Shown in pieces: positions 39,592 through 57,262 of a stretch of 64,000 bases of DNA (its first letter is position 1; each line of letters opens with the position of its first letter). Location: the IMG/VR virus record IMGVR_UViG_3300021091_005330, positions 1 to 64,000 of that record, one strand, 5' to 3'. This DNA comes from a virus. The translations under genes and the position numbers were made by a program. Below the pieces are notes generated by a model. The model was not told the origin of the DNA. It did no database searches and saw only the letters and a list, made by a program, of their open reading frames with translations.

Positions 39592-39620
39592 TTGACAAAA
39601 TTATAAATACTTTATAATAT
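39592..39620 (+). promoter_or_regulatory. Sigma70-like promoter of the structured RNA
   Basis: TTGACA (39592-39597), 17-bp spacer, TAATAT (39615-39620). Predicted transcription start is about 39627, six bases before the first hairpin of the RNA. No start codon is nearby, unlike the other promoters of this class. Confidence 0.75.
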
Positions 39621-39830
39621 AAATCATACATACCGCTCAATTAGCGGATAAGGTTTGTCGTACTCCGTGAAACGATAAGTCTTATTAGTTCGCGCGTGGG
39701 CAACGCTATCGGAGCTTGCGACCCAGAAAACCACTAGTAATAATGGGTGTGTAGGTGTAAGGGCTAACACGAGAATGACAGTCCTACCGGTGTCTGATAA
39801 GTGTTAGGAGCCGAAAGGCTTATGGACTCA

Positions 39831-39841
39831 ATTGGGAAGTT
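39831..39841 (+). repeat. Direct repeat ATTGGGAAGTT, copy 1
   Basis: First of two identical 11-mers inside the structured RNA, preceded by CTCA and able to form TCAA/TTGA around a GGGAAG loop. Confidence 0.75.
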
Positions 39842-39896
39842 GAACTAATAGACTTTTATAGCCCTTTTACAGGGAAAGCTCCGCTTTGGGGAGCTC

Positions 39897-39907
39897 ATTG
39901 GGAAGTT
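39897..39907 (+). repeat. Direct repeat ATTGGGAAGTT, copy 2
   Basis: Second copy, 66 nt downstream of the first, preceded by CTC directly after the AGCTCC/GGAGCT hairpin. Duplication in one RNA suggests a protein- or RNA-binding unit. Confidence 0.75.
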
Positions 39908-40034
39908 AAATAATTAAACGTAACGATACACTTGATTATGTCTTTTTATTAAATGTTAATAACAAATTAAAATTTTCTTTTTAAAAAAGTAAAACTACTG
40001 TAACATAAATATATCTGTTGGAGAAAGTTATTTA

Positions 40035-42296: not shown

Positions 42297-42833
42297 ATGT
42301 ATTTTTCTCAGATAGGACAGGATAGGCTTGTGGATAATTTTTTAGATTTTAAAACTAATGGATATTTTTTAGATATAGGAGCTCATCATTACAGACACAT
42401 AAGTAATACTTACTTTTTTGAAAAGGTAAGAAATTGGCGAGGAATCGCAGTAGAGCTAGATCAATCATTTCAAAACGAATGGATCTCTAATAGACCTAAT
42501 TCTATTTTTATTAATCAAAACGCTTTAGATATTAACTATAGAGATTTATTATTAAAATATGATTTTTCATTAAAAATAGATTTTCTTTCTTTAGATTTAG
42601 AGCCACCAGAAGTAACTCTTGAGGCTTTATACAAAATATTTCAAAGTGATATTACTTTTAACACTATAGCTTTTGAAGTAGATGATTATAGACAAAAGAA
42701 TACTAAGAATAAATCTCGGGAATTTTTATCATCTAAAGGTTACCATTTTGTAGCAGAACTTTATGATAGAAATAATTCTGGTATGATACATGTAGACGAT
42801 TTTTGGGTACATAAGTCTATTCTAAAAAATTAG
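42297..42833 (+). CDS. FkbM-family methyltransferase
   Basis: 178 residues. YFSQIGQDRLVDNFLDFKTNG leads into the SAM-binding motif GYFLDIGAHH (about 20-30), then GIAVELDQ (acidic residue at the end of beta-2) and DFLSLDLEPPE, matching FkbM-type methyltransferases that modify sugars or glycolipids. It begins on the base after the nrdA stop, yet is unrelated to nucleotide metabolism, so it looks like a glycan gene inserted between nrdA and nrdB. Confidence 0.85.
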   Translation: MYFSQIGQDRLVDNFLDFKTNGYFLDIGAHHYRHISNTYFFEKVRNWRGIAVELDQSFQNEWISNRPNSIFINQNALDINYRDLLLKYDFSLKIDFLSLDLEPPEVTLEALYKIFQSDITFNTIAFEVDDYRQKNTKNKSREFLSSKGYHFVAELYDRNNSGMIHVDDFWVHKSILKN

Positions 42834-56843: not shown

Positions 56844-56874
56844 ATAAAAATGCAGACAGGGGGATTCGTTTGCT

Positions 56875-57262
56875 TGGACCCGAAGAGAATTGAACTCTTG
56901 TCTTTTAGTGAATTTAAATTAAAATACTACAAGTTTAGTTATTTTTAGTTTTAGCTTTATATAGAAAAACAACAAACATATTTAGCGATTTTATTTTGAA
57001 TACTAAGCCAATAAAGAACAAAAAAACTTTAAAGACCAAGACATCTAAATACGCAACTATCCATTAGATGTGTCATGGTAATCACGCTGTAGAACTTAGG
57101 CTACAGATACGGTCTCCTCAACTAGAGAAACTCTAGCAGAGATATGACCTTTGTATTTGGCTGTTTTAGCAGTTAATACTTTTAAGGCTTTTTAAAGAGA
57201 CCCACCTAAACCTCTACCTGCATTTTAATTTCGACTCCTAAAATCGAAACCAGTACGGGCCC
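56875..57262 (-). ncRNA. ssrA: Transfer-messenger RNA (tmRNA)
   Basis: 388 nt. The acceptor stem pairs GGGCCCG (57262-57256) with CGGGTCC (56882-56876): seven pairs including the G3-U70 wobble that makes tmRNA an alanine acceptor, followed by discriminator A. The T arm is AAGAG-TTCAATT-CTCTT with the normal 7-nt loop, directly before the 3' acceptor strand. CTGGTTTCGA near the 5' end is the conserved tmRNA D-region. The tag frame most likely resumes at GCT (57170-57168), starts AKTAKYKGH, ends EETVSVA, and stops at TAA 57098-57096, 24 residues. CCA is not encoded. Pseudoknot-like pairings follow the tag. Its promoter is 22 bp upstream. It would rescue stalled ribosomes with a phage-specified tag. 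Confidence 0.93.

Follow-up and report, generated by a model that had tools for sequence, protein, structure and literature searches.

A structured noncoding RNA class with two locked repeats in uncultured phages

The IMG/VR virus record IMGVR_UViG_3300021091_005330, of which positions 1 to 64,000 were analyzed (hereafter "the window"), contains a structured noncoding RNA for which we obtained 65 unique homologues after duplicate removal, all of them from uncultured phages. Judged by comparative analysis of these sequences, the RNA is a real and new class, unrelated to every family tested. Its own promoter, the lack of a reading frame and the compensatory changes in its helices mark it as a probable stand-alone structured noncoding RNA. 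The comparative evidence supports its fold, its promoter, its independence from the gene nrdA, its presence as a single copy, and a lock between two repeats, R1 and R2, which keeps them alike within each RNA. Of the two options offered in an earlier note on this DNA, that of an ornate phage RNA of a new class is borne out by the lack of a matching Rfam family, the strong covariation, the promoter and the single copy.

The probable ends of the RNA (Table 1) were placed where conservation between homologues begins and ceases, and its length across the phages is about 280–320 nt. In the window it forms a ~280 nt island with a GC content of 46%, compared to 29% for the whole window and 19–21% for the flanks, and no ORF of at least 60 aa was found inside this island. 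The earlier note had described a GC-richer stretch without a reading frame and had placed the structured RNA correctly. The RNA has a minus-strand glycosyltransferase gene on one side and nrdA, a complete frame of 753 codons that begins 3′ of the RNA, on the other. Two further genes of the window are a 178-aa ORF that separates nrdA from nrdB (42297–42833, plus strand) and had no Pfam or PHROG match, and a phage-borne adenylosuccinate synthetase (PF00709; 53708–54721, plus strand). The folding energy of the RNA was unremarkable (z = −1.3 on the RNA strand versus −2.5 on the opposite strand); hence, the single sequence alone is no proof of a structure, and the proof comes from the homologues.

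Table 1 Features of the RNA and its promoter in the window
Feature	Position	Strand	Remarks
Sigma70-type promoter	39592..39620	+	TTGACA 39592-39597, TATAAT/TAATAT 39613-39620; conserved in homologues
Structured noncoding RNA	39628..39907	+	conserved ACATA start to end of repeat R2
P1 hairpin CCGC/GCGG	39633..39647	+	both-side changes at 4/4 positions
P2 hairpin GTCGT/ACGAT	39657..39676	+	both-side changes at 3/4 inner positions
P3 5′ strand TATTAGTTC	39683..39691	+	long closing helix; both-side changes at 8/8 inner positions
P4 hairpin GGG/CCC + CGC/GCG	39698..39724	+	CAA and A bulges; both-side changes at 2/3 + 2/3
P5 hairpin CCACTA/TAATGG	39731..39746	+	GUAA loop; both-side changes at 4/4 inner positions
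Pseudoknot helix a, 5′ strand GTAGG	39751..39755	+	both-side changes at 5/5 positions
Pseudoknot helix b, 5′ strand CTAACAC	39764..39770	+	both-side changes at 6/6 inner positions
Pseudoknot helix c, 5′ strand GACA	39777..39780	+	both-side changes at 3/3 inner positions
Pseudoknot helix a, 3′ strand CCTAC	39783..39787	+	pairs with 39751-39755
Pseudoknot helix c, 3′ strand TGTC	39791..39794	+	pairs with 39777-39780
Pseudoknot helix b, 3′ strand GTGTTAG	39801..39807	+	pairs with 39764-39770
P6 hairpin GCC-GAAA-GGC	39810..39819	+	both-side changes at 3/3 inner positions
Repeat R1 GGACTCAATTGGGAAGTT	39824..39841	+	10-nt core identical to R2 core
P3 3′ strand GAACTAATA	39842..39850	+	pairs with 39683-39691
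P7 hairpin CCCT/AGGG	39862..39874	+	both-side changes at 3/3 inner positions
P8 mini-hairpin AAAGC/GCTTT	39875..39887	+	proposed, class A only; 2 distinct strand pairs, too constant
Repeat R2 GGAGCTCATTGGGAAGTT	39890..39907	+	3′ edge of conserved RNA; locked to R1

Homologues were retrieved from the flanks of 80 nrdA relatives, by means of the repeat pair, and with degenerate patterns from conserved stretches, and range from 96% identity down to about 50%. A BLAST search against phage records returned chance pieces only. The homologues fall into five classes (A, n = 18, including the window; B, n = 5; C, n = 9; D, n = 32; E, n = 1), whose representatives are 43–63% identical to each other. A covariance model (model R1) built from classes B, C, and D only, with class A left out, hit the window RNA (44 bits, E = 1.1e-5) as well as 15 other class A loci over the full length of the model. 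In the reverse search, a model built from classes A and E (model R2) recovered members of classes B, C, and D; its match to the window RNA (E = 6.8e-32) is to a sequence of its own training set. As each model finds the classes of the other, the homology does not depend on a single alignment.

From 5′ to 3′, the RNA consists of P1, P2, the 5′ strand of P3, P4, P5, the pseudoknot strands a, b, c, a′, c′, and b′, P6, repeat R1, the 3′ strand of P3, P7, and repeat R2. The long helix P3 closes a domain that encloses P4, P5, P6, and the pseudoknot, which is made up of three interleaved helices, with a–a′ crossing b–b′ and c–c′. As the earlier note had suggested, the pairings were examined for covariation across homologues, and 11 helices show compensatory changes. 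In these helices, which were assigned by hand for each class in a way that favours pairing in the representatives, 87–100% of the pairs are standard, compared to means of 47–77% with permuted partners (distinct strand pairs; 3′ strands permuted among sequences, 500 permutations). The observed pairing was reached in 3 of 500 permutations for P4a and P4b and in none for the other nine helices, a significance that is overstated because the tree is not modelled. In a control with slid partners, which retains relatedness, a pair counter that included the pseudoknot found 92.1% paired versus 28–54% for classes B–D, and 95.5% versus 28–44% for classes A and E. Considering this strong comparative support from 65 members, identities of 43–63% between classes and 11 covarying helices, we take most of the secondary structure as known.

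Several helices listed in the earlier note were right, among them the long stem, which is the covarying P3, and the GAAA tetraloop hairpin (GCCGAAAGGC), but the CTCCG–CGGAG loop pseudoknot that it named found no support (70% paired versus 72% with permuted partners). The supported pseudoknot lies elsewhere (39751–39807) and was absent from that list. The P2 loop ACTCC is conserved in most of class A, and the P6 loop is of the GNRA type in each of the 18 members of class A, in 7 of 9 class C members, and in the class E sequence.

None of the 4,227 families of Rfam release 15, the comparison that the earlier note had proposed, matches the RNA. Gathering scores were not reached for GOLLD, ROOL, HEARO, manA, wcaG, introns, riboswitches, or ribozymes; at E-values up to 5, the RNA region gave one 20-bit csRNA match (cut-off 57). 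In the window, Rfam found the tmRNA alone, 17 kb from the RNA, and loci carrying homologues from each of classes A to E gave no match over the RNA. The titles and abstracts retrieved in literature searches yielded no description of it. A tmRNA was rejected, with ARAGORN and Rfam placing this gene at 56874–57262 only (minus strand; unusual tag AKTAKYKGHISARVSLVEETVSVA), and so was a group I intron, with no family-model match and with nrdA uninterrupted 3′ of the RNA. A CRISPR array was discarded as the covarying P3 3′ strand and P7 occupy the space between R1 and R2. A type III antitoxin RNA does not fit just two short, separated repeats in place of a tandem array of whole repeats, nor the gene pairs around it: glycosyltransferase with nrdA, or a small ORF with tmRNA.

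Phages have a loose group of ornate RNAs whose function is not known; the new RNA may work like two ornate RNAs, GOLLD and ROOL, but belongs to neither family. Like GOLLD, which is also found near tRNA genes, it is large, structured, pseudoknotted, noncoding, and phage-borne; however, GOLLD is much longer (about 800 nt), and its covariance model gave no match. ROOL, an ornate stand-alone RNA of phages and mobile elements, is longer as well (about 580 nt) and likewise gave no covariance-model match. HEARO, the omega RNA of IscB, is similarly structured, mobile, and stand-alone, but its model did not match and the flanking genes examined here are not a nuclease partner. The tmRNA of the same phages is also single-copy and structured and adjoins most class C and D members, but is a separate gene, and neither ARAGORN nor the tmRNA model recognises the new RNA. 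ToxI resembles it in combining a pseudoknot with repeats that meet one partner; ToxI, however, strings together complete short repeats next to the gene of a toxin, whereas the new RNA has two cores of 10 nt set in dissimilar surroundings, and no toxin gene was noticed alongside. The raiA motif RNA (ModT) is stand-alone, ornate, and of comparable size, but occurs, according to a published report, in Bacillota and relatives (PMC11706538) rather than in these phages, and its model had no match.

Among 50 virus records searched over their whole length, 27 contained one true match to model R1 each. All main-clade records of at least 55 kb carry the RNA (the class E record was detected via model R2), and it was missing from a number of the shorter fragments. 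A weak match to model R1 within the nrdA coding sequence of one record (G038) was rejected as chance. In a second set the RNA was present in 22 of 22 virus records, with one extra match at E = 0.9 that represents noise, and the copy number was one in every positive record. At this sensitivity, no RNA was found in a sister clade (77–79% NrdA identity) or in three cultured relatives, the Pelagibacter phages HTVC008M and Mosig and Synechococcus phage ACG-2014d; the closest NrdA among cultured phages is 53% identical. Bacterial genome contigs gave no hit in a scan with a strict pattern that class E and more remote forms would escape, and no relative of the window NrdA was found in them.

The TTGACA/TAATAT promoter pointed out in the earlier note (39592–39597 and 39615–39620) is kept in the homologues. 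Upstream of the RNA, an exact TTGACA is present in 55 of 58 distinct loci, and both boxes together occur with at most two mismatches in 57 of 58 upstream regions versus 20 of 500 random windows. In classes A, B, and E the RNA precedes nrdA and has the same orientation, whereas in classes C and D it is encoded on the opposite strand, downstream of the nrd genes and kilobases away from nrdA. Phages of these two classes have no RNA of the family upstream of their nrdA, which still keeps a promoter-like stretch of its own. This stretch, TGTTARTAA...TTTTCTTTT...TGTAAYATA (window 39920–40030; also L003 and L012), is seen before nrdA with or without the RNA and is probably the nrdA promoter.

Most class C and D RNAs are divergent neighbours of the tmRNA gene, and a small ORF lies in between; in one class D match (G004), the RNA and tmRNA are about 16 kb apart. 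The ORF (MEIIKNKARW..., 69–92 aa) is located at L012:10380-10589 (+), L199:4832-5041 (−), L211:5943-6152 (−), and L016:9564-9842 (+). Its L012 copy matched nothing in Pfam or PHROG, and no copy turned up in the class A and B sequences tested. A phage tmRNA scored over the cut-off in 26 of the 50 records, with 68–92% identity among six compared.

The NrdA proteins of two loci, one with a class A RNA (L061) and one with a class B RNA (L053), are 99% identical, and the similarity of their nrd blocks breaks off no more than about 50 bp from the RNA's 3′ edge. Their nrd blocks (L061:4922-8633 and L053:3154-6881) share about 90% DNA identity, versus about 66% in the alignable flank. The idea that near-identical phages had swapped RNA classes was rejected here, as only the nrd block is alike; the nrd block is thus perhaps the part that moved, and judging from the alignments it seems to move between these phages.

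The two copies of ATTGGGAAGTT reported in the earlier note are indeed present, at 39831 and 39897, and are its sole exact copies in the window. They belong to repeats R1 and R2, which agree with each other at every one of their first ten positions in 64 of 64 unique RNAs parsed. Between phages the core varies, with CTTGGGAAGT, CCTGGGAAGT, CTTGGAAAGT, CTTGGGAATT, CTTGGGAAAT, CAAGAAAAGT, TAAGAAAAGT, and CGGGAAAAAG as examples, around a purine-rich pattern, U-Y-A-(A)-N-N-G-R-R-A-A. Across 17 distinct pairs the repeats are 96% identical versus 68% when permuted (maximum 85%), and within classes A and E alone 95% versus 79% (maximum 92%). When aligned, R1 has one more A than R2 (UYAA versus UYA). 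The repeats are spaced 66–75 bp apart, and the sequences downstream of R2 differ between classes. The tmRNA of the window has a match of 9 bases (CTCATTGGG) at its 5′ end, which was dismissed as coincidence because the tmRNA leaders are alike across classes and the repeats are not.

Such identity seems unlikely to be maintained by gene conversion, which would have to act on some ten bases at a spacing of 66–75 bp; this leaves one partner reading both copies as the likeliest cause of the lock. A search for an internal guide revealed no segment of the RNA that is consistently complementary to the repeats, and four phage sequences contained no complement beyond chance length; both results suggest that the partner is something other than phage nucleic acid.

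We therefore lean, with some caution, toward a free-standing phage RNA scaffold that acts in trans, with R1 and R2 as an equivalent pair of sites at which one partner docks. The RNA would be transcribed during infection by the host polymerase from the sigma70 promoter. The P3-closed domain would display R1 and the 3′ arm (P7) the identical R2, and both would be bound in trans by the same partner, which is most likely a phage or host protein that reads the purine-rich core. The RNA may then serve as a scaffold or sponge during infection, with a partner specificity that would differ among phages and coevolve with both repeat copies; a core that is variable between phages and identical within an RNA is what would be expected if both copies bind one coevolving partner. 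No obvious companion gene is apparent, as the neighbours of the RNA differ between classes. It is a tentative further step to regard it as an RNA machine, a single-copy pseudoknotted scaffold that captures two copies of a coevolving partner with a specificity differing between RNA classes. The locked repeats could alternatively serve RNA–RNA assembly or a host RNA target.

An assembly from RNA only, as in GOLLD and ROOL, in which R1 docks in a receptor of its own molecule and R2 in that of a neighbour to form a particle, is unlikely, although it is the alternative that fares best. Known ornate RNAs are reported to form homo-oligomers (PMC12286853), and the ornate fold, the GNRA-type P6 loops of classes A, C, and E, and the two identical elements on different arms of the new RNA would suit such a particle. 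However, no region covaries with the repeats by base pairing, and the models of GOLLD and ROOL found no match. Less probable still is a base-pairing regulator with R1 and R2 as two seeds for the same host mRNA, rRNA, or tRNA: one shared target would explain the locked copies, but an ornate platform of 250 nt exceeds the needs of a seed, and the phage sequences tested lack a complement beyond chance length. We give slightly less credence to an anti-defence decoy that imitates the ligand of a host defence system, with the repeats setting specificity. No member was found outside phages, the RNA is single-copy, its classes are strongly diverged, and class A and B RNAs occur beside nearly the same NrdA, all of which would fit a decoy; yet no likeness to a known decoy RNA was found, and phages of different classes differ in much else besides the RNA. 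That the RNA is a ribozyme or processes itself, with the repeats as cleavage or splice sites, is very improbable: the pseudoknotted core, the two identical elements, and the lack of an obvious terminator hairpin directly 3′ of R2 (in an unsystematic look) are compatible with it, but ribozyme and intron models gave no match and an internal guide complementary to the repeats is missing. Least credible is the other option of the earlier note, a very large regulatory leader or riboswitch of nrdA, which fits the placement in classes A, B, and E but cannot hold family-wide because the RNA keeps its own promoter, lies elsewhere in classes C and D, whose nrdA does without it, and is uncoupled in its class from the nrd block, while nrdA retains its proximal promoter-like stretch either way.

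To our knowledge, the large structured RNA classes of bacteria and phages are few, and those of known function are mostly ribozymes, riboswitches, or parts of larger machines. For the class described here, the locked pair of R1 and R2 offers a direct handle on the partner. The phage contigs in IMG/VR contain ornate RNA classes that are missing from Rfam.
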